A stretch of 64,000 nucleotides of DNA from the NCBI RefSeq assembly GCF_011064595.1, contig NZ_JAALJI010000004.1, positions 124,001 to 188,000 on the forward strand. Direction: 5' to 3'. This stretch comes from Paludisphaera soli. GTDB taxonomy: Bacteria; Planctomycetota; Planctomycetia; Isosphaerales; Isosphaeraceae. Positions 4,663 to 34,825 of this stretch are shown piece after piece; the first letter of the stretch is position 1; each line of letters begins with the position of its first letter. A program made the position numbers and the translations under genes. The notes below the pieces were generated by a model, which worked only from the letters and a program-made list of their open reading frames with translations, searched no databases and was not told the origin of the DNA.

Positions 4663-5011
4663 GATCCCTCTCTCCGGATTGTTTCAGAAAGTTTTCGCAC
4701 CGTGGATTTCGATCGTCGATCGATCCGACGGGTGGTTCGGGGCAAAGCCGCCCAGGGCCCGTTGCAGGCCGGTGTCTCGCGAATCTGATTCGTCGCGGGG
4801 GGTGGCGTCCAGCCCGGTCTCGGCGGCATCGACGCCGCCGGCCGTAGGCCGGCTCCTCACCTTAATGTGTTCGTCGCACTTCGAGTCGATTCTTGAAGGG
4901 CGACGCCGTGATTCCTCTTCGATTAGACACGAGCTTATCCCCTTGTGGAAGGGGGATGGCGGGGAAATCGCGAGAATTTCCGGCGCGGGTCGCAGGCCGG
5001 CGTCGGCGAGA
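4663..5011. other. intergenic region between hppA and the 5012-8986 gene
   Basis: 349 bases with no supportable gene. It must hold the hppA promoter (minus strand), but I could not find a convincing -35/-10 pair. Its one clear structure is the hairpin at 4837-4853. Confidence 0.4.
4837..4853 (-). terminator. possible terminator hairpin after the 5012-8986 gene
   Basis: A perfect 7-bp stem (GCCGGCC/GGCCGGC) with a GTA loop, about 160 bases beyond the stop of the minus-strand gene. A second overlapping 6-bp stem lies at 4822-4839. There is no T-tract, so terminator function is only possible. Confidence 0.3.
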
Positions 5012-8000
5012 TCACTGCAAGTCTAAATATCGGGATGCGTTGGGTTCCATGAAGGGGCGCCGGGCCCGCGCGGCCGGCCTCGCGTACGGGCCGGCCTGCA
5101 CGTCGGACGAGCGCATTCGGCCCGTGAAGTTCGATGCCGGCCGGCAGGGGATCGGCCTCCTCGGTCGGGACGGCGACGGTTCCGATATGTTCGCCGAAGT
5201 CGGCGATGCGATGGAAACGTACGTTACGGCCGTCTCGGTCGAATTTCGCGAAATCTGTGGAATCGACGACGCGGCCGCCGTCGCCGACCACGTCCTCTCC
5301 GGGCCGCGGACTTCGAACGCGACGACGCCGGACGACCTCGCCAGGCTCTGCCGATCGCCGAGGTAGACGAACTGGAAGTAATGGATTCCCCGCGCGAACT
5401 CCTTCGAACGGAAGGCTGCGTCCGCGTAAAACCGGCCGTCGGGCGTGACCTGGACGAAGGCGAAGGGCCGGCCGTTGTCGAGGAAGAGCACCCCCCCGCT
5501 CAAGGGTGGATAGCCCTCGTACTCCGTGAGGCGGACCTGGAGTTCGACCCTGCCGTCGGCGTACTCGAAGGCGGAGGCGGCCATGTTGACGGTCCGCCTG
5601 GGGTTCTCGTAGGTCGACGCCATGCGGGCGGGGGCGAAGTCCGGGTCGCCCTCTTCATAGGAACCGATGGCTCGATAGAAGCCGGGTCGGGATCGGACGT
5701 CCTCCGGCGGCATGCCGGCCCCGCCCGCCTGCTCGACCGGCCAAACCGTCGCGGCGAACACGCCCGTCGGCTGGACGAACCAGCGTCCGGGGGACTTCAG
5801 GCCTGCGTACAGGCCCGCAAAGATCAGCGGGCGGGGACGCTCGACGACGAGCGTCACAGGCTCGGTTGTGGTGACCCGGCCCGCCTCGTCGACGACCTCG
5901 GCGCGGAAGCGGCGGCCCGATTCGGCGAAGCGGGCGGTGCCGCGGAGCCAGGGTCGGCCTTCGCCCTCGACGTCGACCCAGGCGAGCCCATCGTCGCTGA
6001 CCTGCCAGCGGACGGAGCGGTAGGCGCCGCCGCCCGGCAGCCGGATCGTGAAGGTTTCGCCCGCCACGGCCATGACGGTCCCCGGGGCCTCGACCGCGAA
6101 CGGCGGCGGGACGATTTCCGGATCGGGAGCCGGGGGAGGCTTCGGCGTGGGGGCCGTCCCCGGGAGCGGGGCCGCCAGACCGGTCGCCACGGACTCCCCG
6201 GGCGGCTTCACGACCGTGCGGTGGACGCCCGACGAAGCGGCGGCCGTCCGTGGGTCGCCGAGGTAGACGAACTGGAAGTAATGCGGGCCGGCGGAAAGCC
6301 GGACCGTCGTCGAGGCCACGACGCGACCGCCGACGACCGCCACCTGCACGAACGCGAAAGGGACGCCCCCGTCGAAGAAGACGACGCCCCCGCCTGGAGC
6401 CGGGCCGGTCCCGGACGAATCGAGGACCGCCGTGATCGTCGTCGCCGCGCCGAGCGTCGCCTCCGCCGGCGTCTCCGCGTTCAACGTGGATCGGTTCCTC
6501 TCGACCCAGAGGGTCCGCACGTTGCTCGCCGGGGCCGAGACGTCGTCGCCCAGGTAGGAGACGCGCAGGTCGCGGGCCCCCGCCGCGGCCGCGCCGGGGA
6601 TCGTGAAGACGGCCCGGCCGTCGACCAGCGCGGCCTCGTAGGGGCCGAAGTCGGACGACGGCCAGTACGATTCCAGACGGACGATCCCGGTGGGCGTCGG
6701 CAGGCCGGGGACGGCCGCGTCGACCCGGACCACCAGCGTGACCGGCGCCCCGACCGGGGCGGGATTGACGTTGAACGCCAGGGCGATCTGCGGCTCCGCG
6801 CGATCGGCCCGGAGCAGGGCGGGGAGGCTGGCGCGGGACGCGCCCGACTCGGGGTCGACGAACACGACCCGGAAGAGGTCCCCGGCGTCGGCCGCCCTGA
6901 TTGAGAATTGCAGGGTCGAGCCCGTCAAGCCGCCGGAGGAAGTCGTCCGCACCTCGCCGGCGGCGTCGCGCCAGGAGGCTCCGCCGTCGTCGCTGGCCTG
7001 CCACCGGGCCTCCAGGCCCGGGGCGTCGGCCGCGGCGTAATACGTCGCCGGCCGGCCGACGATGAGGTCCTGGGGGAACGGGCCCTCCACGACGTCGAAC
7101 CCGTCGACGAGGTCGAACGCGTAGATCGCGCCACTGCGGCCCCGCGCGCCGTCCCTCGCGTCCGAGACGACGACGAACCCGTCGCCGGTGAGCGCGGCAC
7201 CCAGGCCGAACAGCATTCCCGACGGTTCCTCGAGGGGGGTCTTGCGAGGTCCGGGCACCCAACCCGACTCGGAACGCCGGAAGACGATCGCCACGCCCCG
7301 GGTGTCCTCTCGGTCGATCCAGGCGCCGAACGCGGTCGTCAACGCGACCGAGCCGTCGTGGTTGACGTCGATCGCCTCGCCGACGTCCCAGACGCGCCAC
7401 TCTTCCGGGATGCCGAGGTAGCCCGACCGCTCCCACCCCGCCCCGACGCGAGAGAGGACCAGGATGCCCTGCGGCCCGCCGTTCCGGGTCACGGCCCCGC
7501 CCACGAACGCCGTCGAGCCGTCGCCGCTGATCGCCACTGATCTGCCCAGGATCCCGCCCACCCAGACTCCGGGCTCGGCCCGGAGCTGCGCCTGCCGGAC
7601 CCATCCCGTTCCGGAGTCGGCGTAGATGAGGGCGGCGGAGCGGTATTCGTAGAGGATCCCGTTGACGGGAGCCCCCACGACCAGCGTCGCGCCGGCCGCG
7701 TCGAGGTCCAGGCTCGCGCCGAAGGAGTTGTCCGGGAGGTCTTCGGGCTTGGGGATGACGCCGGCACGCTCCCAGTCGACGCCGCTCCTCTTGAACGTCG
7801 CGATCCCGAGGCCATGGCCGACCCAGTCGCGCTCGACCGCCACGATCACGGCCCCGTCGGCCGAGACCGCAAGGGGGCCGACGAGGCGGGCGGCGTGGGA
7901 GTCCTCCGCCGCCGAGAACGTCCCCGCGATCGACCATTCGGATTCGTCGCGGATGTAGACCGAGAAGCTCGACGCGTCCCCGACGACCAGTGTCGAGCCA

Positions 8001-22737: not shown

Positions 22738-22748
22738 CCGGCCCGGCG

Positions 22749-22757
22749 TGCTAAAAT
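22749..22757 (+). promoter_or_regulatory. extended -10 promoter candidate for ftsY
   Basis: TGCTAAAAT: a TGn extension plus TAAAAT (5/6), which puts transcription start near 22764, 62 bases before the ATG at 22826. It supports the shorter FtsY start. Confidence 0.4.
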
Positions 22758-22825
22758 GGCTTCATCATCCCCGGGCCGCGCCCGAGGACGGCGACACTCG
22801 ACCCGCAGGGAGACGAAGGGCGGAC

Positions 22826-23731
22826 ATGGCGATCAAAGGGATCCTGGAGCGGTTCAAGAAGGGGCTCGCCAAGACGGCGCAGCTGTTCAACGTACGGTCG
22901 TGGTTCGGCCGGAAGGTGGACCAGGCGTTCCTGGACGAGCTGGAAGGGCGGCTGATCCAGGCCGACGTCGGCGTGGCGGCGACCTCGCGGATCATCGAGT
23001 CGGTGCGCGAGGCGTTCGCCGACCAGACGGCCGACGAGAACCTCGTCGCGTTCGTGAAGGATCAGCTCAAGGAGCTGCTTCGCGACCCCAGCCCGGACGC
23101 CCTGACCGTCTCGGCCAAGAAGCCGAGCGTCTACCTGATCGCCGGCGTCAACGGCTCGGGCAAGACGACCTCGATCGCCAAGCTGGCGCAGCGTCTCCGT
23201 GACCAGGGCAAGTCCGTGGTCCTGGCCGCGTGCGACACCTTCCGCGCCGCGGCCGCCGACCAGCTCTCCATCTGGGCCGAGCGTTCCGGCTGCGAGATCG
23301 TCCGGGGCGCCCCGGGGGCCGACCCGGCGAGCGTCGCCCACGACGCCTGCCAGCGCGCCCTGGCGCGGGGGAGCGAGGTCCTGATCGTCGACACCGCCGG
23401 CCGGCTCCACACCCAGACCCACCTGATGCGCGAGCTGGAGAAGATCAAGTCGGTCGTCCAGCGGCAGATCCCCGGCGCTCCGCACGAGGTGCTGCTGGTG
23501 CTGGACGGCACGAACGGCCAGAACGCCATCCGCCAGGCCGAGGTCTTCACCAAGAGCATCGGCTGCACGGGGGTCATCCTGACCAAGCTCGACGGCACAG
23601 CCAAGGGGGGCGTCGTCGTCGCCGTCCGGCAGACGCTGAAGCTGCCGGTGAAGTTCCTGGGCGTGGGCGAGGGGATCGAAGACTTCCAGCCGTTCGACGC
23701 CGAGGCGTTCGTCGAGTCGCTCTTCTCCTGA
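22826..23731 (+). CDS. ftsY: signal recognition particle receptor FtsY
   Basis: 301 residues. SRP-family GTPase that docks ribosome-SRP complexes at the membrane. An N domain (about 1-85) is followed by the G domain with GVNGSGKTTSIAKLA (G1), the insertion-box region DTFRAAAADQL, DTAGRLHTQTHLM (G3), TKLDGTAKGG (G4) and GVGEGIEDFQPFDAEAFVESL at the end. It lacks the long acidic A domain of E. coli FtsY, as in many bacteria. The start at 22826 follows GAAGGG and lies after the promoter-like element at 22749. Confidence 0.95.
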   Translation: MAIKGILERFKKGLAKTAQLFNVRSWFGRKVDQAFLDELEGRLIQADVGVAATSRIIESVREAFADQTADENLVAFVKDQLKELLRDPSPDALTVSAKKPSVYLIAGVNGSGKTTSIAKLAQRLRDQGKSVVLAACDTFRAAAADQLSIWAERSGCEIVRGAPGADPASVAHDACQRALARGSEVLIVDTAGRLHTQTHLMRELEKIKSVVQRQIPGAPHEVLLVLDGTNGQNAIRQAEVFTKSIGCTGVILTKLDGTAKGGVVVAVRQTLKLPVKFLGVGEGIEDFQPFDAEAFVESLFS

Positions 23732-23876: not shown

Positions 23877-25385
23877 ATGGCGACCTTCCGCATCGACGCG
23901 CTCGGCAAGACGCCGGCCCGCCTTCGCTCCTGGCTCGACCGCACCCGCAAGGCGACGGCCGGACGCTCCGCGACCTCGCGGTTCGCCCTGCTGGCGCTGA
24001 TGGCCGGCGGGATCGCCGCGGCCGGCGGCCTGGCCGCCTGGTCGATCGCGCCGGCCGATCGCGTCTATCTCGAATCGGGGCGGGATTTCCCGCGCGAGGA
24101 CCTGGGGCGTGTGGGGCGGGCGCTGCGGGCCCAGGGGGTGGACTACAGGATCGAGGGCCGCCGCGTGAGCGTCGCCGGCCGCTCGTCGGTCGCCGCGGCC
24201 GCGATCCTCGCCAAGCTCGACCTCGGCCCGCGATCGCCCGGCGAGCTCCGCGAGAGCGCCGCCGCCGGCTCCTCCTTCTGGGAGTCGCCGCGCGAGAAGG
24301 AAGAGCGCGCCCAGCGCGAGAACGCCAAGCTCTTCGAGGCGATGATCGACGACCTGCCGGGCGTCGAGAGCTCGTTCGTGTTCTTCAAGAGCGAGGCCCA
24401 GCGAGGCGTCCTGCGGCCGACGACTCGGACCACCGCCGTGGTGCAGGTCCAGACCGTGGAAGGCCGCGAACTCCCCTCCTCCACGGTCGAGACGATCACC
24501 TCGATCCTCACCGCGGGCGTCCGCGGCCTGACGCGGCAGTCGTTCACCGTCGTCGACGGCGAGGGCCGCGTCTATCGCGACGCCGACAACCCGGCCCTCG
24601 CCGCGCTCTCGAACAACCGGGCCCGCGAGGAGGAGCTGAGCCGCCGCATCCACGACAAGCTCGACTGGATCAAGGGCGCGCGGGTCGACGTGAAGATCGA
24701 GGACGCGCCGGCCGAGCCCGAGCCGGTCGCCCTCCGCCCCGCCCCGACGCCCATCCCCTCGGCCTCCGCCCCGCGGCCGGCCCTGGCCGTCGGGCTCAAC
24801 CGGGCGATGGAGCTGGACCCCGACGAGGAGGCCCCGGCGCCCGAGGCGGACGCGATCCTCGCGCCGGCCCGACGGGCCCAGGGCCGCGTCCGAGTCCTGG
24901 TCCCCCGGAGCTACTACTACAACACCGGCCTCATGGCCGACGGCGGCCACGCCTCGCACGAGGAGTACCTCGCGCTCAAGGACCGGACCGAGGCCCTGGT
25001 CCGCGACACGGTGCGGCTCATCGTCCCCGAGGCCGACCCGGTCGACTGGGAGCCGACGCTCGTCGAGGTCCTGCCCGACGGGATCCCGTCCGACCACGCG
25101 CCGGCCGCCGCTTCGACCTCGTCGCGGCGGACGGGCCGGGAGTGGGCCATGGCCGGCGCGGCGGGCGCGGCGGCCGCCTCGCTCGTCGCCTTCGGGACGT
25201 GGGTCTTCGGCAGCCGACCCGCGCCGCGGCGGGCCTCGCCGTCCCGAGGCGACCTGCGCTACCATCGCGGGACCGCCGGCACCCCGCCCCCGACCGAGCG
25301 CGTGCTGGAATTCGTGCGACGCAACCCGGAGACCGCCTTCAGCGTGCTCAACCGCTGGACGAGCCAGGGAGGGGGAAGGTCATGA
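23877..25385 (+). CDS. fliF: flagellar MS-ring protein FliF (divergent)
   Basis: 502 residues. First gene of the flagellar operon; GGAGG lies 4 bases before the ATG. Membrane helix 1 is at about 36-57 and helix 2 at about 424-447, as in FliF. Between them is the YscJ/FliF ring-building region: ALRAQGVDYRIEGRRVSVAG, then the segment around KLFEAMIDDLPGVESSFVFF and TTAVVQVQTVEGRELPSSTVETITSILTAGVRGL. The C-terminus (VLEFVRRNPETAFSVLNRWT) resembles the FliG-binding tail. It is shorter than typical FliF (540-570) and poorly conserved, but the FliG-coupled context makes the call firm. Confidence 0.85.
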   Translation: MATFRIDALGKTPARLRSWLDRTRKATAGRSATSRFALLALMAGGIAAAGGLAAWSIAPADRVYLESGRDFPREDLGRVGRALRAQGVDYRIEGRRVSVAGRSSVAAAAILAKLDLGPRSPGELRESAAAGSSFWESPREKEERAQRENAKLFEAMIDDLPGVESSFVFFKSEAQRGVLRPTTRTTAVVQVQTVEGRELPSSTVETITSILTAGVRGLTRQSFTVVDGEGRVYRDADNPALAALSNNRAREEELSRRIHDKLDWIKGARVDVKIEDAPAEPEPVALRPAPTPIPSASAPRPALAVGLNRAMELDPDEEAPAPEADAILAPARRAQGRVRVLVPRSYYYNTGLMADGGHASHEEYLALKDRTEALVRDTVRLIVPEADPVDWEPTLVEVLPDGIPSDHAPAAASTSSRRTGREWAMAGAAGAAAASLVAFGTWVFGSRPAPRRASPSRGDLRYHRGTAGTPPPTERVLEFVRRNPETAFSVLNRWTSQGGGRS

Positions 25386-26023
25386 ACCCGTCGACCGCGT
25401 CCGCTTCCGTCCGAAAGCCCCACGCCCAGGTCGGCGCCGACCCCCTCCGCGGGGACGCCGGCGCCGGGCTCGACCCGCTCGCCCCCGGGGCCGAGGCCGC
25501 CGACGCGCCGTCGATCGCCTCGATCCCGCCGCTGCGCAAGGCGGCGATCGTCCTGGTCAGCCTGGAGCAGTCGCTCTCGTCGCAGATGCTCGCGCACCTC
25601 GACCGCGACGCCGTCGACGCGGTGACCTGGGAGATCGCCCGGATGGAGAGGGTCGACCCGGCCGAGCAGGCCGTGGTGCTGGAGGAGTTCCTCAGCCTCG
25701 GGCTCCGTCGCCTCTGCTTCGTCTTCGAAGACCTCCTCCGCATGGACGACCGCGAGATCCGCGCCGCCTTCCGCGCCGAGGACGCCGAGGCCTGGGCCCT
25801 GGCCCTCGCCGGCTCGGCCCCGCCGCTGCGGGCCAAGGTGATCGGCGCCCTGAACGCCTCGGCCGGCCAGACGCTGCAACGCTACCTGGAGAACCTGGGC
25901 CCGTTCCGCCTCTCCGACACCGAGGTCGCCCAGGTCGAGGTCTCGGAACGCCTCCGCATCCTCTACGACCAGGGGGTGATCGACCTGCCCGACCCCAGCG
26001 GCCGCGAGGAAGTGCTGGTCTGA
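25382..26023 (+). CDS. fliG: flagellar rotor protein FliG, short form without middle domain
   Basis: 213 residues; the ATG overlaps the fliF stop (ATGA). After a 50-residue low-complexity lead comes an N-terminal FliG segment (LRKAAIVLVSLEQSLSSQML to VVLEEF, about 51-103). It passes directly into the C-terminal torque domain: VFEDLLRMDDREIRAAFR, ALALAGSAPPLRAKVIGALN, ENLGPFRLSDTEVAQVEV (about 114-205). The charged torque-ring positions D122/D123/R124 and the later Arg are kept. Normal FliG is 330-350 residues, and the roughly 100-residue middle (ARM-M) domain with its EHPQ motif is absent. No frameshift is visible. Confidence 0.85.
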   Translation: MNPSTASASVRKPHAQVGADPLRGDAGAGLDPLAPGAEAADAPSIASIPPLRKAAIVLVSLEQSLSSQMLAHLDRDAVDAVTWEIARMERVDPAEQAVVLEEFLSLGLRRLCFVFEDLLRMDDREIRAAFRAEDAEAWALALAGSAPPLRAKVIGALNASAGQTLQRYLENLGPFRLSDTEVAQVEVSERLRILYDQGVIDLPDPSGREEVLV

Positions 26024-26099
26024 CCGGACCCGCCCCGACCCGCGATCCCCCGCGCTTCGCCCCGCCGAACGGCTCCCGCGACTCATGAAGGACCCTCGC

Positions 26100-26615
26100 A
26101 TGGAACGAGCCAAGCTCTCCCTCCTCGTCGCGCTGCTGCTGGCGTTGGCGACCGCTCCGGCCGCGTCGGCGCAGGACGTCGCCGCCCCGCAAGCCGTCCC
26201 TGCACGACCCCATATCGAAACCGCCGCGAGCAAGAAGTCGCGAGGGGCCTCGCTGGCGCCCGGCTCGCAAGGCTGGTGGCTCGGCACGGCGTTCATGGTC
26301 GTCGTCCTGGGGGCGGCCGGCGTGGTCTGCATCGCGGCGAAGCGCCAGGCGGTCGGCGGGCCCTCGGTCAAACTGCAGGTCGTCGGCCGCGTCTCGCTTC
26401 CGCCCAAGCACGCCGTCTTCGCGGTCAAGGCGGGCGACCGGACCCTGCTCATCGGCGTCGGCCCCCAGGGGGCCCCCGCGCTCCTCGGCGAGCTGGACGA
26501 CGAGGCCGTCGCCGAGGCCCCGCCGCCGGCCGCACGGGTCGCGGCCGTCCCCCCCGCCCACCGACCGATCGCCTCGCAAAGCCGCTTCGACGTGCGGATC
26601 GGAGACGAATCATGA
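26100..26615 (+). CDS. fliO: FliO-like flagellar export assembly protein
   Basis: 171 residues. ATG 26100 is preferred over ATG 26085 because AAGGA lies 7 bases before it. A signal peptide (to about residue 25) is followed by one membrane helix (WWLGTAFMVVVLGAAGVVCI). A small cytoplasmic domain then reads VKLQVVGRVSLPPKHAVFAVKAGDRTLLIGV, which is the FliO pattern of beta strands. FliO helps assemble the FliP-FliR core. Sequence conservation is low as always for FliO; position between fliG and fliP supports the call. The stop overlaps the next ATG. Confidence 0.78.
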   Translation: MERAKLSLLVALLLALATAPAASAQDVAAPQAVPARPHIETAASKKSRGASLAPGSQGWWLGTAFMVVVLGAAGVVCIAAKRQAVGGPSVKLQVVGRVSLPPKHAVFAVKAGDRTLLIGVGPQGAPALLGELDDEAVAEAPPPAARVAAVPPAHRPIASQSRFDVRIGDES

Positions 26616-27682
26616 GCGGGCGCCACGACGAGCCAGGAGCCGTATCCCCTTCCCCCCTGGTGGGGGAAGGTGGCCCGCAGGAGCGGATGAGGGGGACCAT
26701 CAAGGCGAACTGCGCGAGTCCGCAATGGGATCTTCGGGCCGCCCGTCACTCCGAAGGGTGTTCATGCTCGTCTTCCCCCTCATCCGGCCCTGCGGGCCAC
26801 CTTCCCCCGCCAGGGGGGAAGGGATGGTTCGTCAGAATCGCCGTGCTGGTCCTCCTGACGACGGTCTTCGCCGGCTCAGGCCTGGCGCAGACGACCTCGA
26901 AGGAAGCCCGCAAGCCTGCAGCCCCGTCGCGGTTGAACACTCCGGCGGCGGTCGTCGAGAAGCCCCCGGCCGAGGACGTCGAGCCCGCGCCGAGGAGTGC
27001 CGAGGCCCAGCCGCCGGCCCCGACGGATTTGACCCGCACGCTGCAGTCGGCGGTCCTGTTCGGCGCGGCCTCGCTGGCACCCGTAGCGCTCCTGATGATC
27101 ACGCCGTTCGTGCGGATCAACATCGTCCTGATCCTGCTGCGGCAGGCGCTGGGCAGCCCCCAGGTGCCGGGGAACCAGGTGCTCATGGCGCTGGCGCTGC
27201 TGCTGAGCGCCCTGGTCATGCGGCCGGTCGCGGAGCGGGTCTACGCCGAGGCCGTCGAGCCTTACATGGCCGGGAAGGCCGGCCCGGTCGAGGCCTGGAA
27301 CGCGGGGTCGAAACCGATCAAGAAGTTCATGGTCGATCAGATCGTCATGACCAACCACGGCGAGTACCTGACGACCCTTCACGATCGGGCCCGGGGCGGG
27401 ACCCCCGGCGCCGCCCAGCCGGAAGCCCCCGAGGACTTCGCGATCGGCGTGGTCGCCCCGGCCTACATCCTCAGCGAGCTGACGACGGCGCTGAAGATCG
27501 GCTTCCTGCTGTACCTGCCTTTCCTGGTCATCGACCTCGTGGTCTCGGCGGTGCTGGCGGCGATGGGCCTGTTCATGCTGCCGCCGACCCTGGTCTCGAC
27601 CCCCGCGAAGCTGATCGTCTTCGTGCTCGCCGACGGCTGGCTGCTGGTGGCCGACATGCTGCTCGCCGGCTTCTCGGTCTAG
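26612..27682 (+). CDS. fliP: flagellar export gate protein FliP, 5' end carrying a REP pair
   Basis: 356 residues from the ATG that overlaps the fliO stop. The conserved FliP core begins near residue 135 and matches through ALLMITPFVRINIVLILLRQ, GSPQVPGNQVLMALALLLSA, KKFMVDQIVM, APAYILSELTTALKIGFLLY and VLADGWLLVADMLLAGFSV. A signal peptide (VRIAVLVLLTTVFAGSGLAQ) sits at about 74-93, so the first 73 codons lie before it. They are mostly the inverted REP pair at 26644-26825, read through without a stop. A GTG at 26843 would remove the extension but has no good ribosome-binding site. The start is therefore uncertain. Confidence 0.88.
   Translation: MSGRHDEPGAVSPSPLVGEGGPQERMRGTIKANCASPQWDLRAARHSEGCSCSSSPSSGPAGHLPPPGGKGWFVRIAVLVLLTTVFAGSGLAQTTSKEARKPAAPSRLNTPAAVVEKPPAEDVEPAPRSAEAQPPAPTDLTRTLQSAVLFGAASLAPVALLMITPFVRINIVLILLRQALGSPQVPGNQVLMALALLLSALVMRPVAERVYAEAVEPYMAGKAGPVEAWNAGSKPIKKFMVDQIVMTNHGEYLTTLHDRARGGTPGAAQPEAPEDFAIGVVAPAYILSELTTALKIGFLLYLPFLVIDLVVSAVLAAMGLFMLPPTLVSTPAKLIVFVLADGWLLVADMLLAGFSV
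26644..26696 (+). repeat. REP-like dispersed repeat, copy A
   Basis: About 53 bases: a C-run/G-run palindrome with a short loop, then GGTGGCCCGCAGG and CGGATGAGGGGGA. It shares its full length with copy B in inverted orientation, 78 bases further on, and with copy C at 44709. It lies in the 5' part of fliP. Confidence 0.75.
26766..26825 (-). repeat. REP-like dispersed repeat, copy B
   Basis: Inverted relative to copy A. Besides the shared core it has the outer flank GAAGACGAG, also found (as GAGGACGAG) at copy C. A and B make a roughly 180-base inverted pair, like a REPIN/BIME unit. Confidence 0.75.
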
Positions 27683-27696
27683 AAGGGAGGCTCCAC

Positions 27697-27963
27697 GTGG
27701 ACATCAATCAGGCGATCGACTGGACCCGCGAGGCGCTCCGGCTCACGCTGCTGCTCGGCGGGCCGCTTCTGGCGGCGGCGCTGGCGGTCGGGCTGGCGGT
27801 GAACATCCTCCAGACCCTGACCCAGCTCAACGAGCCGGTCGTCGGCCTGGTCCCCCGGCTGGTGGCGGTGGTCCTGGCGACCCTGGTCCTGCTCCCCTGG
27901 CTCGCGGCCCGCTGGATCGACTTCACGGTCGACCTCATCGGCTCGATCCCGGATATGATCTGA
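27697..27963 (+). CDS. fliQ: flagellar export gate protein FliQ
   Basis: 88 residues from a GTG at 27697, with AAGGGAGG ending 6 bases before it. Two membrane helices with the FliQ pattern: AIDWTREALRLTLLLGGPLL, then AVNILQTLTQLNEPVVGLVP and VVLATLVLLPWL. FliQ subunits wrap the FliP-FliR helical gate. Begins 14 bases after fliP. Confidence 0.93.
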   Translation: MDINQAIDWTREALRLTLLLGGPLLAAALAVGLAVNILQTLTQLNEPVVGLVPRLVAVVLATLVLLPWLAARWIDFTVDLIGSIPDMI

Positions 27964-27988: not shown

Positions 27989-28756
27989 ATGACCGACCTG
28001 CCGCTCGACGTCGGCTGGCTGACCGCCAACGGCGCGGCCTGCGCCCTGATCGCGGCGCGGTCGGCGGGCGTCTGCTTCACCGCCCCGGTGCTGGCCGCGC
28101 CGGGCGTCGACTGGCGGTTCCGCATCGTGCTGGCGCTACTGCTCGGGGCCTGGATGGCGCCCCTGGCCGCGCCGCTGGTCGGCACGCCGTCCTCGCCCTA
28201 CGGGCTGGGCTGGCTCGCGATCAACGAGGGGCTCGTCGGCGCCCTGATCGGGATGGCGGCGTCGCTCGTGGTCGCCGGGGCGAAGCAGGCGGGGGACATC
28301 GTGGCGGCGCAGGCGGGTCTGTCGACGGCCTCGCTGTTCGACCCCGAGTCGGGCGAGGAGCTGACGGCGCTGGGCCACCTCTACGGCCTGATCGCGATCG
28401 CCGCGTTCCTGGCGGTCGACGGCCCGCTGCGGATGACCGAGGCCCTGCTCCAGAGCTTCGAAACCGTCCCGGCCGGGCGGCTCGTCTTCGAGCGGTCGAC
28501 CGTGCAGGCGATGTTCGCGCAGGCGGCCGAGGCGCTCCAGCTGGCGGTCCGCGCGGCGGCGCCGCCGGCGGTCGCGCTGGCGACGGCCGGGGTTGCGCTG
28601 GGCTGGCTCGGCCGGCTCGCGCCGAGCGTCCCCTTGATGGCGCTCTCGCTGCCGATCCGCGCGGCCCTGGGCGTGCTGCTGGTGATGGCGGGCCTGGTCG
28701 CACTGACGGCCTGCCTGGAAGCCGCCTGGATGGACTGGGCGCGGGCCGGATTCTGA
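27989..28756 (+). CDS. fliR: flagellar export gate protein FliR
   Basis: 255 residues and about six membrane segments. FliR features include SAGVCFTAPVLAAPGVDWRF, the long helix INEGLVGALIGMAASLVVAG followed by AKQAGDIVAAQAGLS, and a polar FDPESGEELTALGHL loop. It completes the P5Q4R1 gate core. Follows fliQ by 25 bases. Length is normal for the family. Confidence 0.92.
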   Translation: MTDLPLDVGWLTANGAACALIAARSAGVCFTAPVLAAPGVDWRFRIVLALLLGAWMAPLAAPLVGTPSSPYGLGWLAINEGLVGALIGMAASLVVAGAKQAGDIVAAQAGLSTASLFDPESGEELTALGHLYGLIAIAAFLAVDGPLRMTEALLQSFETVPAGRLVFERSTVQAMFAQAAEALQLAVRAAAPPAVALATAGVALGWLGRLAPSVPLMALSLPIRAALGVLLVMAGLVALTACLEAAWMDWARAGF

Positions 28757-28786: not shown

Positions 28787-29818
28787 ATGTCGGAAGATCG
28801 CACGCAGCCCGCGTCCCCGATGCGTCGCCAGCTCGCCCGCGAGCAGGGCCAGGCGGCCCACAGCCCCGAGCTGACCGCCGCCGCCGGCTGGCTCGTCGCG
28901 GTCTCGCTCCTGACCGCCTTTGAAACGCGATTGACCGGCTCCCTCGTCGCCCTGGTCCGCGCGCCGATGACCGGCCCCGCCGCACCTCTGGCCGACGCGG
29001 CCGACCTGGCCTGGGTCGTGCGCGACGCGGCGGCGGGGGTCGTCCTCCCGGTCGCCGCGGTGCTCGCCGGCTTCGCCCTGGGGGCCTTCGCGGCGCATCA
29101 ATTCCAGACCCGGGGGCTCTGGGCGCCGGCGCTGCTGGCTCCGGACCCCTCGCGGCTCTGGCGAGTCGGCCGCGGCGGCGGGTTCGGGATGAAGGTCGAG
29201 CGGGGCGTCTGGTCGGTGGCGAAGGCGCTGATCCTGTCGGCCGTCGCGGCCTGGGGCGTCCGCTCGCGCTGGGGGGCCCTGCAGGGGCTGAGCTTCCTGG
29301 ACTTCCCCGACGCCGCGCGGGGGGCGTTCGCGATCCTGACGGCGCCCGCCTGGGCGCTGGCGGCGGCGATGATCGCCGTCGGGCTCGTCGACTACGGCCT
29401 CCGCTTCGCGCGGTTCGAGGCCATGCTGCGGACGACGCCCGAGGAGCAGCGCGAGGACCTGAAGACGATCGAGGGGGACCCGAAGGTCCGGGCCTCGCGA
29501 CGGCGGCTCGCCCAGGCGCTGCGCGACGGCACGCCCGAGCTGCTCGAAGGGTCGTCGCTCGCCCTGCTGGGGGACGCCGGGCTGATCGTCGTCCTCGCCG
29601 GGGGCCCGCCGCCGCGCAAGGTGTTCGTGCGGGTCGTCGCGCGGGGGGCCGCGGCGCTGTCGATCCGCGGGGCGGCGGCGCGGTCGGGGCTGCCGATGGT
29701 CGACGCGGCGTCGCTCGCCCTGCGGATCGCCTCGCGGCCGGACGCCGGATCGCCGCGCGCGGCGGTCGCCGATCCGCTCCTGACCGCCCAGCTTCGCGGC
29801 GTCTGGCCGTCCGCCTGA
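28787..29818 (+). CDS. flhB: flagellar export switch protein FlhB lacking the NPTH cleavage motif
   Basis: 343 residues. Normal FlhB layout: a short basic start (PMRRQLAREQGQAAHSPEL), four membrane segments to about residue 215, and the cytoplasmic linker with EEQREDLKTIEGDPKVRASRR (about 228-248). The C-terminal domain still aligns (KVFVRVVARG, SGLPMVDAASLALRI). At the position of the self-cleaving NPTH loop, however, residues 266-276 read LIVVLAGGPPP, with no Asn-Pro-Thr-His anywhere. Canonical FlhB cleaves itself there to switch substrate specificity, so this protein should not. A clean stop and intact frame argue against simple decay. Confidence 0.88.
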   Translation: MSEDRTQPASPMRRQLAREQGQAAHSPELTAAAGWLVAVSLLTAFETRLTGSLVALVRAPMTGPAAPLADAADLAWVVRDAAAGVVLPVAAVLAGFALGAFAAHQFQTRGLWAPALLAPDPSRLWRVGRGGGFGMKVERGVWSVAKALILSAVAAWGVRSRWGALQGLSFLDFPDAARGAFAILTAPAWALAAAMIAVGLVDYGLRFARFEAMLRTTPEEQREDLKTIEGDPKVRASRRRLAQALRDGTPELLEGSSLALLGDAGLIVVLAGGPPPRKVFVRVVARGAAALSIRGAAARSGLPMVDAASLALRIASRPDAGSPRAAVADPLLTAQLRGVWPSA

Positions 29819-30073
29819 TCAGGCCGGCGAAACCCCGCCCGGGGGGGCTTTCGACCTGGACAGTCCGGGGCGATGGATGTATTGTCCCCGCACACATCAC
29901 GCGGGCCGATTCGGGCCTGCTGGAGACGGCTCGACCGGCCGCCCCCCTTCGCTCGCGACGGGTGGCCGAGGCGGGCGGATGGAAGGTTCCGGCGAGTGGG
30001 CGCGGGGCGTGGATCGCCCGCCGCGTCGGCGTGTGGATTTGGTGCGTCGTTCGGTCCGTTGGGAGTGGAATGG
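29819..30073. other. gap between flhB and flhA
   Basis: 255 bases with no gene. The flhA frame is open through part of it, but those codons read as Arg/Gly-rich noise. A GGGAG ribosome-binding site close to 30074 fixes the flhA start. Confidence 0.4.
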
Positions 30074-32338
30074 ATGCCCCCGTCGACTTCGGATCGTGCC
30101 GCCTCCGCCTGGCGGGCCGCCTCGGGGCTGGTCCTGCCGATCACCCTCGTCGGGGCGGTCCTGGTCTTCGTCGTGCCGGTCCCCCCGGAGCTGCTCGACC
30201 TCCTGCTGGCGGCGAACCTGACGCTCGCCGTCCTGGTCCTGCTGACGACCCTGGCGATCCGATCGCCGCAGGAGTTCAGCGCCTTCCCGACGATCCTGCT
30301 GACGACCACGCTCACCCGGCTGGTCCTGAACGTCGCCACGACGCGGCTGATCCTCACCCGAGGGGCCGAGCACGGCGCCGACGCGGCCGGCTCGGTGATC
30401 CGGGCGTTCGGCGAGTTCGTCGCCGGCGACCAGGTCCTCGTGGGGGTGATCCTGTTCTCGATCCTGGTGGTCATCCAGTTCGTCGTCATCACCAAGGGCG
30501 CCACGCGGATCAGCGAGGTCGCCGCGCGGTTCATGCTCGACGGCCTGCCCGGCCGCCAGATGGCGATCGACTCCGACCTCCATGCCGGCCTAATCGACCA
30601 GCGCCAGGCCCAGGCCCGGCGCGACGAGGTCTATCGCCAGGCCGACTTCTTCGGGGCGATGGACGGGGCCGGCAAGTTCGTCCGGGGCGACGCCGTGGCG
30701 GGCGTGGTCATCCTGCTGGTCAACGTCGCCGGCGGGCTGTTCATCGGCGTGGTCCAGAACGGCATGGCCGTGGGCGAGGCCGTCGAGGTGTTCACCAAGC
30801 TGACGATCGGCGACGGCCTGGTGAGCCAGGTCCCGGCGTTCCTGATCTCGCTGGCGGCGGGCCTGATCGTCACGCGGTCCTCGTCGGCCAGCGACATCGG
30901 CCGCGACGTGGTCGGTCAGCTCACGACGAACCCGGCCGTGCTGGGCGTCTCGTCGGCCTTCCTCGGCCTGCTCGCGTTCACGCCGCTCCCCAAGATCCCG
31001 CTCCTGGCCCTCTCGGGCGTCCTCGGCTGGCGGGCCTATCGCCTGCGAGGCTCGACGCCGATCGAGGCGGAGGAGGCCGAGCCCGAGGCCCGTCCGGCTC
31101 CGCGACGGTCGCCATCACGCGCCGACGCCCCCGAAACCGCCCGGCCGACCGCCGCGACGACCCCCGCGACGCCGGCTCCGGACGTGCGGCCGGAACCCGC
31201 CCGCTCCTCGGGCGACCCGACGTCGGACGACATGGAGAACCTCCTGCACGTCGACCTGCTGGAGCTGGAGATCGGCTACCGGCTCATCAGCCTGGCCGAC
31301 TCGACGCGGGGCGGCAACCTGCTGGAGCGGCTGCGGACCGTCCGCCAGAACGTGGCCCGCGAGCTGGGCCTGATCGTCCCTCAGGTGCGCATCCACGACG
31401 AGATCGGGCTCTCGGCGCACGAGTACCGGGTGAAGATCCGGGGCACGGTGGTCGGCGGCGGGTCGGCTTACGCCGGCCGCTTGCTGGCGATCCCTCCGGC
31501 CGACGCCGCCGAGCCCCCCGAGGGCCGCGAGGCGGTCGACCCCGCGAGCGGGCGGGCCGCCGTCTGGATCCACGCCGAGGGCCGCGAGGTCGCCGAGCTG
31601 GCCGGCTGCCGGATCCTCGAAGCCTCGGCCGTCGTCGCCTCCCACTTCGGCGAGATCGTCCGCAGCCACGCCGACGAGCTGCTCACCCGCGACCAGATCG
31701 AACGCCTGCTCGACCGGGTGCGGACCACCGCCCCCACGCTGGCCAACGAGGTCGTCCCCGGGCTTCTCCGCCCCGGCGAGCTGCAGCGGCTGCTGCAGAA
31801 CCTCCTCCGCGAGCAGGTGAGCATCCGCGACCTGGAGACGATCCTGGAGACCCTGGCCGTGCACGCCGGCAAGACCAAGGACGTCGAGCCGCTGACCGAG
31901 CTGACCCGCCAGAGCCTGGCGCGGCAGATCACCGAGAGCCACCGCTCGGTCGACGGCCGGATCCGCGTGGTCACCCTGTCGCAGGACCTCAACTCCCGGC
32001 TCTCGATCGTGGCGGGCCAGTCCGAGGCGCACCCCTCTGAGGCCCTGGGCGACGAGACCGTCCGGAGCATCCTCCGCGCCGTGGCGCAGGGGGTCGGAGC
32101 CCTGGTCGACGCCGGCCTGCCGCCGATCGTCCTGACCTCGGCCCCGGCCCGCGCCGTGCTCAAGGACCTGACCCGGGCCGACCTGCCCCGGCTGGTCGTC
32201 CTCAGCCAGCGCGAGATCCCCCGCGACACGCCCGTCGAGGTCCTGGGGACGATCGTCGAGGAGCCCGCCGAGGGCGACGACGCGGCCGAGCCGGCCGTCG
32301 ATCCGGTGACGTTCGCGACGACCGAGGCGTTCGCATGA
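30074..32338 (+). CDS. flhA: flagellar export platform protein FlhA
   Basis: 754 residues from ATG 30074 (GGGAG 8 bases before). Eight membrane segments in the first half contain the FHIPEP-family signature TRLVLNVATTRLIL, the loop FMLDGLPGRQMAIDSDLHAG with the Asp that couples export to the proton gradient, and DFFGAMDGAGKFVRGDA. An Ala/Pro-rich linker (about 335-385) leads to the soluble nonameric ring domain: LEIGYRLISLADSTRGGNLL, VRIHDEIGLSAHEYRVKI, and TLSQDLNSRLSI near the end. The linker is longer than usual; otherwise it is canonical. The stop overlaps the flhF ATG. Confidence 0.95.
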   Translation: MPPSTSDRAASAWRAASGLVLPITLVGAVLVFVVPVPPELLDLLLAANLTLAVLVLLTTLAIRSPQEFSAFPTILLTTTLTRLVLNVATTRLILTRGAEHGADAAGSVIRAFGEFVAGDQVLVGVILFSILVVIQFVVITKGATRISEVAARFMLDGLPGRQMAIDSDLHAGLIDQRQAQARRDEVYRQADFFGAMDGAGKFVRGDAVAGVVILLVNVAGGLFIGVVQNGMAVGEAVEVFTKLTIGDGLVSQVPAFLISLAAGLIVTRSSSASDIGRDVVGQLTTNPAVLGVSSAFLGLLAFTPLPKIPLLALSGVLGWRAYRLRGSTPIEAEEAEPEARPAPRRSPSRADAPETARPTAATTPATPAPDVRPEPARSSGDPTSDDMENLLHVDLLELEIGYRLISLADSTRGGNLLERLRTVRQNVARELGLIVPQVRIHDEIGLSAHEYRVKIRGTVVGGGSAYAGRLLAIPPADAAEPPEGREAVDPASGRAAVWIHAEGREVAELAGCRILEASAVVASHFGEIVRSHADELLTRDQIERLLDRVRTTAPTLANEVVPGLLRPGELQRLLQNLLREQVSIRDLETILETLAVHAGKTKDVEPLTELTRQSLARQITESHRSVDGRIRVVTLSQDLNSRLSIVAGQSEAHPSEALGDETVRSILRAVAQGVGALVDAGLPPIVLTSAPARAVLKDLTRADLPRLVVLSQREIPRDTPVEVLGTIVEEPAEGDDAAEPAVDPVTFATTEAFA

Positions 32339-33468
32339 TCGGCGAGCGGCCCGCAAGCCGGGCGAAAGAGGGGGAAGCGGCCGCCAGGACCTACCGAGGC
32401 CGGACGATGCGGGAGGCGCTGGCGCGGGTGCGCCGGGACCTCGGCGGCGACGCCGTGATCCTCGCCGCCCGCGAGGTCCGCCGCCGCCGGTTGTTCGGCC
32501 TGTCGGCCCGCGACACGGTCGAGGTGGACGCCTCCTCGCCCTCGTCGGAATGGGTCGCGGCCCCCGCCCCCGCCAGGCCCCCGAGGGGGCTCCCGGGCGA
32601 CCTGGGCCGGGTCCACGCGATGGTCGGCGAGCTGAGCCGACGCGGCCTGATGGAGCAGTGGTCGCCCGACCTCCCGGCCGAGCTGGCCTCAACCTACGCC
32701 CGCCTCCTGGAGGCCGACGCGCCGGAGCCCTCGGCTCGGGCCCTCGTCCTGGAGGCCGCGCGGGCCTCGGGGCCGGAGGACCTGCGGACGCCCGCCTCGG
32801 CCCTGGCGGCCGTCCGGCGCGTCCTGGAGGACTCGCTGGCCGTCGCGCCGCCGATCCGGGCGGTCGCGGGCCTGCGACGGGTCGCGGCCCTGGTCGGGCC
32901 GACGGGGGTGGGCAAGACGACGACCATCGCCAAGCTCGCCGCGACGCTCAAGCTCCGCCGCGGGGTGAAGGTCGGGCTGCTCACGGTCGACGCCTATCGG
33001 ATCGCCGCCGTGGAACAGCTCCGGACCTACGCCGAGATCCTCGACGTGCCCCTGGCCGTCGCCGACGAGCCCGAGGCCGCCCGCCGCGCGCTCGACGACC
33101 TGGGGCCGCTGGACGTGGTCCTCGTGGACACGGCCGGCCGCAGCCCTCGCGACCGCGAGCGGATCGGCGAGCTGGGCGAGCTGCTGGCCCGCCTACGCCC
33201 CGACGAGGTCCACCTGGTCCTGGCCGCCTCCACCTCGCGCCGGAGCCTGCGAGCCGCGGCCGACCTGTTCGCCCCGGCCCGGCCCGACCGCTTGATCTTG
33301 ACCAAGCTCGACGAAGCCGAGACTCTAGGGCCGCTGCTGGCGGTCCTGGGTCGCTCCGACCCCCCGGTCGGCTACCTGACCACCGGCCAGGCCGTCCCCG
33401 ACGACATCGAGCCCGCCGCCCGCGGCCGGCTCGCCCGCCTGATCCTGGGCGAGGAGTCGGCGGGATGA
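32335..33468 (+). CDS. flhF: flagellar SRP-type GTPase FlhF
   Basis: 377 residues; the ATG lies within the flhA stop (ATGA). An N-terminal B domain begins RGRTMREALARVRRDLGGDA, then an N-domain helical bundle (about 90-180), then the SRP-GTPase G domain: GPTGVGKTTTIAKLAA, DAYRIAAVEQLRTYAE, DTAGRSPRDRERIGEL, LTKLDEAETLGPLLAV. FlhF dimers set where and how many flagella form. Their GTPase is switched on by the N-terminal peptide of FlhG, and the downstream small gene supplies just that motif. Confidence 0.94.
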   Translation: MIGERPASRAKEGEAAARTYRGRTMREALARVRRDLGGDAVILAAREVRRRRLFGLSARDTVEVDASSPSSEWVAAPAPARPPRGLPGDLGRVHAMVGELSRRGLMEQWSPDLPAELASTYARLLEADAPEPSARALVLEAARASGPEDLRTPASALAAVRRVLEDSLAVAPPIRAVAGLRRVAALVGPTGVGKTTTIAKLAATLKLRRGVKVGLLTVDAYRIAAVEQLRTYAEILDVPLAVADEPEAARRALDDLGPLDVVLVDTAGRSPRDRERIGELGELLARLRPDEVHLVLAASTSRRSLRAAADLFAPARPDRLILTKLDEAETLGPLLAVLGRSDPPVGYLTTGQAVPDDIEPAARGRLARLILGEESAG

Positions 33469-33536
33469 CCCCGGCCGAGACCCGATCGCGCAGCCGTCCC
33501 GCGTCCCTTCCGCCGCGTCCTTCACGGAGGCGTCCC

Positions 33537-33737
33537 ATGAACGACCAAGCCGAGAGCCTGAGACGACTGGTCCGAGCCCATCGGGATTGGGAACGGCTGA
33601 CGGCCGCCCCCCCGACGGCCCCTCGGCCCGACGCCGACCGCGAAGGTTCGGCCTCGCGGGACGCCCCCCGGCGTGCCGGCGCGACCTCGGCCCCGGCCCC
33701 CCGGGCCGGCCGCGGAGACTCGCGAAACCCGAGGTGA
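33537..33737 (+). CDS. mini-FlhG: stand-alone DQAxxLR FlhF-activator peptide
   Basis: 66 residues from ATG 33537, with GGAGG 6 bases upstream. An ATG at 33465 overlapping the flhF stop is also in frame. The protein opens MNDQAESLRRLVRAHRDWER. DQAESLR fits DQAxxLR, the conserved N-terminal motif of FlhG (YlxH) that activates the FlhF GTPase. In normal operons flhG follows flhF and encodes this peptide joined to a MinD/ParA ATPase of about 250 residues. Here the remaining 45 residues are a disordered Ala/Pro/Arg tail and the frame ends. No ParA motif occurs in any frame before fliA. Confidence 0.7.
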   Translation: MNDQAESLRRLVRAHRDWERLTAAPPTAPRPDADREGSASRDAPRRAGATSAPAPRAGRGDSRNPR

Positions 33738-34048
33738 ACGCCGAGGCCGGGCCGGCCGCGACCAGGGATGGGTGGGATCGGGCCCGATCGGCGGATTGTT
33801 CGGATTCTTCGGACGGCGAGGCTCAAGACGAATGGGCGGGTCGTCCGATGAGTAATGAGGATCGAGTTCCTTGAATGGCGAGGGGCATGGGGCGGCGGCC
33901 CCGGCCGACGCGGCCCGAATCCCCGGCGGGGCGGGCGGGCGGATCGGACGGGACGCCCCGCGATCGCCGGCGGACGGGATCCTCGTCCCTTCCTCGGAGG
34001 CCGCACAGGGATGTGCGCCCCCCTCGCGCAGCCGACACGGAGGTCAGG
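33738..34048. other. gap between mini-flhG and fliA
   Basis: 311 bases. I looked for the missing FlhG ATPase (KGGVGKS, DTPAG-like motifs) and found none. Frames open here are Arg/Gly/Pro-rich without a credible start. It may hold a promoter for fliA. Confidence 0.45.
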
Positions 34049-34825
34049 ATGTCAACCAAGGTGGATGTGGATGTGACGGAACTCTGGCGGGAGTTCAAGG
34101 AACAGCCCACCACGGAGATGCGGAACCAGTTGGTCGAGCGCTACTTGGCCCTGGTCAAGTACAACGCGGAACGCATCTGGCAGCGCCTGCCCGAGGGGGT
34201 CGACCTCGACGACCTGATCTCGGCCGGCGTCTTCGGCCTGATGGACGCGATCGACGCCTTCGACCTGACGCGCGGCGTCAAGTTCGAGACCTACTGCGTC
34301 CCGCGGATCCGGGGGGCCATGCTCGACGAGCTGCGGACGATGGACTGGGTCCCCCGGCTCGTCCGATCCAAGGCCACCAAGATGGAGGAGGCCCGCAAGG
34401 AGCTGGAGGCCCGGCACGGCCGGCCCCCCACCCCCGCGGAGCTGGCCGAGCGCCTCGGCCTGCCGATGGAGGAGTTCGACAAGATGGCGTCCGACGCCAA
34501 CGCCGTCGGCCTCATCTCGCTCAACAAGAAGTGGTACGAGACCGACAGCTACAAGGACGTCCGCGAGATCGACATCCTCGAGGACAAGAAGGGGGAGGAC
34601 CCCACCCGGCGTCTCCAGCGCAAGGACCTGATGCGCATGGTGACCAAGGGGCTCAACCGCAACGAGCGCCTCATCATCATCCTCTACTATTATGAAGAGT
34701 TGACGATGAAGGAGATCGGCGCCACGCTCGACCTGAGCGAGTCGCGGGTCTCGCAGATGCACTCGTCGATCATCCAGCGGCTGCAGTCGCAGCTCTCGCA
34801 GCGCCGCCCCGAGTTCGGGACCTGA
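34049..34825 (+). CDS. fliA: flagellar sigma factor FliA/WhiG (sigma-28)
   Basis: 258 residues from ATG 34049 (GGAGG 5 bases before). Directs RNA polymerase to late flagellar promoters. Region 2 reads RLPEGVDLDDLISAGVFGLM and AFDLTRGVKFETYCVPRIRG. Region 3 includes RHGRPPTPAELAERLGL. Region 4 includes RLIIILYYYEELTMKEIGAT and LSESRVSQMHSSIIQRL. Normal length for the family. Last gene of the flagellar run. Confidence 0.94.
   Translation: MSTKVDVDVTELWREFKEQPTTEMRNQLVERYLALVKYNAERIWQRLPEGVDLDDLISAGVFGLMDAIDAFDLTRGVKFETYCVPRIRGAMLDELRTMDWVPRLVRSKATKMEEARKELEARHGRPPTPAELAERLGLPMEEFDKMASDANAVGLISLNKKWYETDSYKDVREIDILEDKKGEDPTRRLQRKDLMRMVTKGLNRNERLIIILYYYEELTMKEIGATLDLSESRVSQMHSSIIQRLQSQLSQRRPEFGT

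Follow-up and report, generated by a model that had tools for sequence, protein, structure and literature searches.

An flhG-derived short gene that keeps the enhancer helix without the ATPase, and its probable role as a stand-alone FlhF activator in the Isosphaeraceae

A 64,000-nucleotide stretch of the Paludisphaera soli genome, referred to here as the window, carries one run of flagellar-type genes in the order divergent fliF, fliG, fliO, fliP, fliQ, fliR, flhB, flhA, flhF, a short flhG-derived gene and fliA (Table 1). The export gate components FlhA, FlhB, FliP, FliQ and FliR were all found within the window. FlhF was recognized by its SRP-type GTPase motifs together with the FlhF family model, and its nearest solved relatives were FlhF entries, including 2px0, 2px3 and 3syn, the last of which contains the FlhG helix; a single-sequence AlphaFold model had a mean pLDDT of 49, too low for use. 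In addition, ftsY, which encodes the SRP receptor, was located at 22748-23731 and directly precedes fliF; two SRP-type GTPases therefore bracket the export-gate genes.

Table 1. Features of the flagellar-type gene run in the window (positions are those of the window)
Feature	Position	Strand	Remarks
divergent fliF, YscJ_FliF domain only	23877..25385	+	below NCBIfam fliF cut-off
fliG (start approximate)	25388..26023	+	profile match
fliO	26085..26615	+	PF04347
fliP (start approximate)	26804..27682	+	PF00813
fliQ (start approximate)	27694..27963	+	PF01313
fliR	27989..28756	+	PF01311
flhB-like export gate gene	28787..29818	+	PF01312
flhA (start uncertain)	29873..32338	+	PF00771, E 1.4e-231; slightly below NCBIfam FlhA cut-off
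flhF, SRP-type GTPase	32335..33468	+	GPTGVGKTT, DAYRIAAVEQL, DTAGR, TKLDE, TGQAVP; TIGR03499 FlhF above cut-off
GGAGG ribosome-binding site of short gene	33526..33530	+	6 nt 5' of ATG 33537
flhG-derived gene with enhancer helix (EH) only, 66 codons + stop	33537..33737	+	between flhF and fliA
EH, codons 1-18 (MNDQAESLRRLVRAHRDW), contains DQAxxLR	33537..33590	+	pN/pS 0.19 (codons 2-18, five species of the window's genus)
tail of short gene, nearly unconstrained in genus	33591..33734	+	pN/pS 0.80; FlhG C-terminal block unmatched
conserved sigma-28-like element TCAAG...TCCGATGA upstream of fliA	33823..33851	+	conservation in relatives
fliA, sigma-28-type factor	34049..34825	+	TIGR02479 above cut-off; FliA/WhiG subfamily

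The element upstream of fliA is one that we take to resemble the sigma-28 consensus. The corresponding pattern TCAAG(n)TCCGATA/GA, about 200 nt 5' of fliA, was seen in 13 of the 13 family genomes displayed (38 were aligned; one substitution was allowed). The family is one without detectable flagellin, and a search with the element could point to what FliA controls there.

An earlier note on this DNA, made from the sequence alone, had described a 66-codon ORF after flhF with a ribosome-binding site and a product beginning MNDQAESLRRLVRAH, all of which was borne out when the window was read again. The product begins MNDQAESLRRLVRAHRDWERLTAAPP and continues into a tail in which proline, alanine and arginine are abundant. 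The start at 33465 given in that note is an in-frame upstream ATG that overlaps the flhF stop and opens a 90-codon frame. We rejected it in favor of 33537, the likelier start, because the conserved ATG lies at a variable distance from the flhF stop (48-77 nt) across five species of the window's genus. In the relatives examined for this region, a G-rich stretch precedes the start of the short gene.

Two features of FlhG were found in the short gene, namely the N-terminal DQAxxLR enhancer helix and the position directly 3' of flhF. A MinD/ParA-type ATPase domain with a KGGxGT motif was detected neither by Pfam and NCBIfam, in which no model matches the 66-aa product, nor by tblastn at the locus or a profile search of the genome. 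The C-terminal amphipathic membrane-targeting helix of FlhG was likewise not recognized in the window's tail, for which 2332 of 5000 shuffles were as good. The gene descends from flhG through loss of the MinD-type ATPase, with the N-terminal enhancer helix alone retained.

FlhF was searched in 45 Isosphaeraceae genomes, including that of the window, and the locus was taken from 40 genomes and from the window (41 loci). Genomes G008, G016 and G064, which have no clear flhF, and G024, whose flhF is divergent, fall outside this count. The search for the same short gene after flhF, proposed in the earlier note, found it at 15 of the 41 loci (59-78 aa), next to 25 loci with a full or probably full FlhG and one decayed copy in the window's own genus (G004). 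The 15 EH-only loci belong to six genera (G000, G001, G002, G003 and G005 in g1; G011, G028 and G059 in g7; G023 and G035 in g19; G025 in g21; G018, G032 and G063 in g14; G020 in g16). The short gene occupies the same place in all of them, and other genera carry a full FlhG there. With the window's 66-aa protein as query, orthologues were found in G002, G001, G005 and G003 of the same genus at E 1e-6 or better. DQAxxLR was present in 38 of the 39 family loci at which the 5' end of the gene was in view, G004 being the exception.

A full FlhG could be read at 21 of the 41 loci (273-358 aa). The other copies included a full-length match with one in-frame stop, whose EH reads DQANELR (G066), a broken piece at the flhF locus with the full gene on a different contig (G015), a full gene on a different contig (G034), and a match away from the flhF locus with the N-terminus outside the match (G027). 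The 273-aa FlhG of G017 (locus L098) retains DQAxxLR together with a KGGVGTS stretch; the DADxG stretch seen in its relatives is missing, and the profile matched it in two pieces. It may be an intermediate toward the short form.

The earlier note had also held that the MinD/ParA ATPase body is missing up to fliA. Both searches agree with this. A tblastn comparison of full family FlhG with the window's locus (E up to 0.01) gave no match, and a profile built from eight full FlhG proteins and run on the 45 family genomes divided them cleanly: 26 had matches at E 3.8e-57 or lower, and the best value among the other 19 was 4e-16, the level of general ParA/MinD-like proteins. These 19 were the 15 EH-only genomes together with G004, G008, G016 and G024, so that in this search FlhG was absent from the whole genome in every EH-only case. 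Several of these assemblies are nearly closed (five contigs in G002, three each in G003 and G028). In the window's genome, which is 99.97% complete, the profile search for a MinD-like FlhG elsewhere gave only general ParA/MinD-like proteins. The two outcomes that the earlier note had named as fatal to its reading, a complete flhG elsewhere and a short frame not conserved in close relatives, did not occur, since relatives share the short gene and FlhG was found at no other place; its view that helix and ATPase have come apart holds. A helix on ParA-like genes was sought by scanning 8 of 13 ParA-like places and locus L217 for QAxxL[R/K]. Three strings were found (L002, L006 and L217), none of which, read from coordinates, stands at the start of a ParA-like frame.

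The ATPase appears to have been lost repeatedly. On a tree of FlhF and FliA with 39 rows, which has long branches at G020 and G017 and leaves 10 of 36 inner branches open, the full/short label needs at least five changes, at least three of which are forced by starred branches. Since regain of a lost ATPase domain is unlikely, these changes translate into at least three independent losses of the FlhG ATPase, and probably five or six.

Selection distinguishes the two parts of the short gene. When five species from the window's genus were compared, helix codons 2-18 had a pN/pS of 0.19 and the codons beyond them one of 0.80; for the same ten species pairs, flhF gave 0.29-0.46 and fliA 0.04-0.09. 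In neutral simulations, which used an assumed simplified tree and a simplified base composition and mutation model, none of 5000 runs at each of three rates was as low as the observed helix value. The helix is under purifying selection in the window's genus. A chance ORF in GC-rich DNA is ruled out by helix conservation in the genus and by these simulations. Residues D3, Q4, A5, L8 and R9 were identical in the 15 short and 21 full proteins; this invariance of the 36 tabulated proteins is partly by construction, because they were collected with DQAxxLR itself, a dependence from which the simulations are free. With the helix constrained and the tail nearly free, it is the helix rather than the tail that forms the working unit in the window's genus. 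Because selection still guards the helix, FlhF probably retains a job in the family.

Tails of the short genes were compared with the C-terminal block of full FlhG (GFFxALAARWALxRV). A hydrophobic-window scan, a weak method, did not separate short from full tails, and this block test was used instead. Shuffles as good as the real tail numbered 0 of 5000 for G025 and 7 of 5000 for G011. The tails of G023 (24/5000) and G059 (29/5000) were suggestive, although neither survives correction for 16 tests, and the remaining 12 of the 16 tails, the window's among them, were not under 1%. Given the matches in G025 and G011, some short genes may have arisen by internal deletion, with the helix and a membrane anchor left in place. 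It is possible, though less likely than not, that in some genera such a deletion, having spared the enhancer helix as well as the membrane-targeting helix at the C-terminus, yields a membrane-bound FlhF activator; the two suggestive tails lean the same way, and against it stand the 12 tails above 1% and the nearly unconstrained tail within the genus. This reading concerns the genera of G025 and G011, and the window's copy shows no sign of it.

The state of the helix and the state of FlhF were found to go together. In G004, which belongs to the window's genus, the helix has DPA for DQA and LG for LR, and its pN/pS against the other five species is 0.74. The FlhF of this species lacks the YRIAAVEQL, DTAGR and TGQ motifs and shows pN/pS of 0.42-0.54 in its five pairs versus 0.29-0.46 in the other ten, and FliA is still 98% identical despite the lost helix. 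G024 has no intact EH between flhF and fliA, and the same three motifs are missing from its FlhF. On the reverse strand of this locus (L237), a frame SSDQAGRLVSRI with the one-mismatch string DQAGRLV overlaps the end of the damaged flhF. The six frames of the window (127,996 codons) contain 19 strings of this type, so that about 0.1 would be expected by chance at the G024 site; the string may be a relic of the enhancer helix or a chance occurrence. The helix is thus dispensable in some relatives, being damaged in G004 and without a recognizable working form in G024.

Across the loci assessed, the GTPase motifs of FlhF were canonical in 73 of 73 with an EH, 38 in the family and 35 outside it (the latter from the best 80 of 571 matches; three of the 35, L126, L157 and L183, have a departed motif). 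Of the 7 loci that lack an intact EH, 6 had broken motifs (non-family loci again from the best 80 of 571); lack here means that none was found between flhF and fliA or, for G004, that it is damaged. Assigning G024 to the EH-bearing group would give 73 of 74 canonical and 5 of 6 broken. Damage is strong in G004, G024, L138 and L172, and consists of a single E to Q change in L179 and L181, two planctomycete loci with no EH gene after flhF in which FlhF reads DTFRIAAVQQL. The sole exception, L168, has canonical FlhF motifs and no EH between flhF and fliA; FlhF may therefore stay intact without an EH, unless one lies elsewhere in that genome. The count omits L165, in which the motif was out of view, L130 and L170, in which FlhF was partial, G027, whose EH could not be seen, and G034, whose FlhF was cut. 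Fisher's test gave 2e-8, a value that overstates the association because the motif patterns were post hoc (they were relaxed once strict patterns missed intact proteins), the loci are related (L179 with L181, for instance), for which the test makes no correction, and three EH motifs have departed.

Outside the family, the scan of named loci kept the best 80 of 571 matches, and records very near the window's genome may be missing from it. Among these 80 were 71 loci not identified with a family genome. No flhF was in view within 2.5 kb in 28 of them; of the rest, 37 showed an EH-like motif and 6 lacked one. An exact KGGxGT string was missing from 23 of the 37 EH-like loci, a figure into which we read nothing, the pattern being a strict one. 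A short frame was found in only one of the 71 (L183, 5308-5523), as a 71-aa FlhG frame with a QAxxLR helix and a P-loop-like remnant. Shortened or altered FlhG frames that retain the QAxxLR helix were also observed at L157 (4766-5347) and L164 (about 4745-5359). In addition, a small membrane-protein-like frame (M-x-R-x-Y-A/S-G-V-L-G and variants), noticed by eye, recurs just 5' of fliA; it lies between the flhG position and fliA in L118, L123, L125, L155-L157, L164, L165, L172, L181 and L183, and no such frame was noticed there in the window.

Profile searches, which very divergent versions would escape, were used to assess flagellar genes in the family. Flagellin_N was detected in 0 of 45 Isosphaeraceae genomes, versus 35 of 44 other Planctomycetia that served as control. 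The rod/hook domain (Flg_bbr_C) was found in 1 of 45 (G008, without a clear flhF), and the T3SS ATPase C-terminal domain, the only model used for FliI, in 1 of 45, as a partial match in the full-FlhG genome G012; no match to this domain was found in the window's genome. FliG_C was present in 38 and FliMN_C in 34 of the 45. The picture is of a stripped export gate, with FliG in 38 of 45 genomes and FliF, FliOPQR, FlhAB, FlhF and FliA kept in the window. The available text on Paludisphaera borealis describes this species as non-motile and the described Isosphaeraceae members as having no motile swarmers and few flagellar genes; P. borealis is nevertheless reported to carry most chemotaxis genes (PMC5352709), which fits oddly with an absent flagellum. 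From the flagellin, rod/hook and T3SS ATPase counts, there is probably no flagellum to count. The flagellum was probably lost first, because lineages of the family with full FlhG also lack flagellin.

We consider it likely that, in an export-gate system that has no flagellum, the peptide activates the FlhF GTPase on its own, a role to which homology, selection and the association of the EH with FlhF integrity point. The complex of FlhF with the FlhG helix was reportedly described by Bange et al. in 2011. In flagellated bacteria, as outlined in part of a 2025 review, the FlhG enhancer helix acts through the glutamine of DQAxxLR to stimulate GTP hydrolysis by FlhF, and converts the active dimer to inactive monomer; flhF and flhG are said there to co-occur in about 30% of bacterial genomes (PMC12826062). 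By analogy, the free peptide would bind the GTP-bound FlhF homodimer and supply the co-catalytic glutamine of its DQAxxLR motif, upon which FlhF would hydrolyse GTP and the dimer would separate without an ATP-dependent FlhG cycle. FlhF would act on what remains of the machine, an MS-ring-like FliF, FliG and the FliOPQR/FlhAB gate. Translation of the short gene is presumed in this scheme, as is a process that the system serves. For Pseudomonas aeruginosa, the available text reports that FliG is bound by GTP-bound FlhF and that the interaction weakens on hydrolysis (PMC12713375).

If instead the short gene were a functionless relic, the 5' end of flhG left behind in a decaying flagellar operon, then the lack of a detectable flagellum in the family, the decayed copy in one species of the genus and the nearly unconstrained tail would all be expected. 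We regard this as unlikely, since the helix codons are under purifying selection while synonymous sites diverge, the helix outlasted the ATPase in each of at least three, and probably five or six, independent losses, and FlhF motifs are intact wherever the helix was assessed as present. A still less probable alternative is that the peptide owes only its origin to FlhG and acts on another target, such as FliA or fliA expression. The short gene does lie directly upstream of the very strongly constrained fliA; however, G004 keeps FliA nearly unchanged without the helix while its FlhF decays, and conservation falls on the residues of a motif with a known action on FlhF. The control of flagellar number without FlhG ATP cycling, proposed in the earlier note and in line with the role of FlhG in flagellated species (PMC12826062, in part) and the chemotaxis genes of P. 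borealis, is hardly credible in view of the flagellin, rod/hook and T3SS ATPase counts and the reported lack of motility.

Activation of FlhF by the free helix may form part of a wider picture, to which we would give an even chance: a GTPase-activating microprotein and FlhF would together make a GTP-driven switch for the timing or placement of a non-flagellar FliF-FliG-FliOPQR/FlhAB machine under FliA control, without rod, hook, filament or export ATPase, in non-swimming planctomycetes, the ATPase having been discarded repeatedly with nothing to count. FlhG joins an FlhF-activating helix to a membrane-cycling, number-controlling ATPase, and evolution has parted them several times and kept the helix alone. 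The split marks FlhF activation as the part that is still needed after loss of the flagellum, and prompts one to ask which purposes FlhF, FliG, the export gate and sigma-28 serve in non-flagellated bacteria. Natural stand-alone activators, together with natural joint losses (G004 and probably G024), offer material for asking whether the helix suffices in vivo.

A literature search at the level of titles and abstract beginnings, mostly of open papers, gave no paper naming a stand-alone EH, and the available part of the 2025 review of the FlhF-FlhG switch has no mention of an EH-only form (PMC12826062). Flagella-like loci in species not thought to be flagellated are mentioned in an available portion of another paper (PMC3459982). 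The short gene resembles FlhG/YlxH in its N-terminal DQAxxLR helix, its location between flhF and fliA and the presence of full-length homologues at this locus in sister genera; it differs in lacking the ATPase domain, the deviant Walker A and the membrane-targeting C-terminus, and in having 66 rather than about 300 aa. FleN of Pseudomonas, an ATPase, likewise departs from the full FlhG layout. It is the mirror image of the window's gene, being described in the available text as without DQAxxLR (PMC12713375), whereas the gene studied here keeps the helix and has lost the ATPase. In the activation of Ffh-FtsY by SRP RNA, as the review outlines, an SRP-type GTPase dimer similarly receives a catalytic group from a partner (PMC12826062), although here the partner would be a protein helix and the dimer a homodimer of FlhF. 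Lysobacter enzymogenes has also retained flagellar export genes, for other purposes, without a flagellum; in the part of that paper available, FliI is included and FlhF, FlhG and FliA do not appear (PMC7277350), whereas the window keeps FlhF, the helix and FliA.
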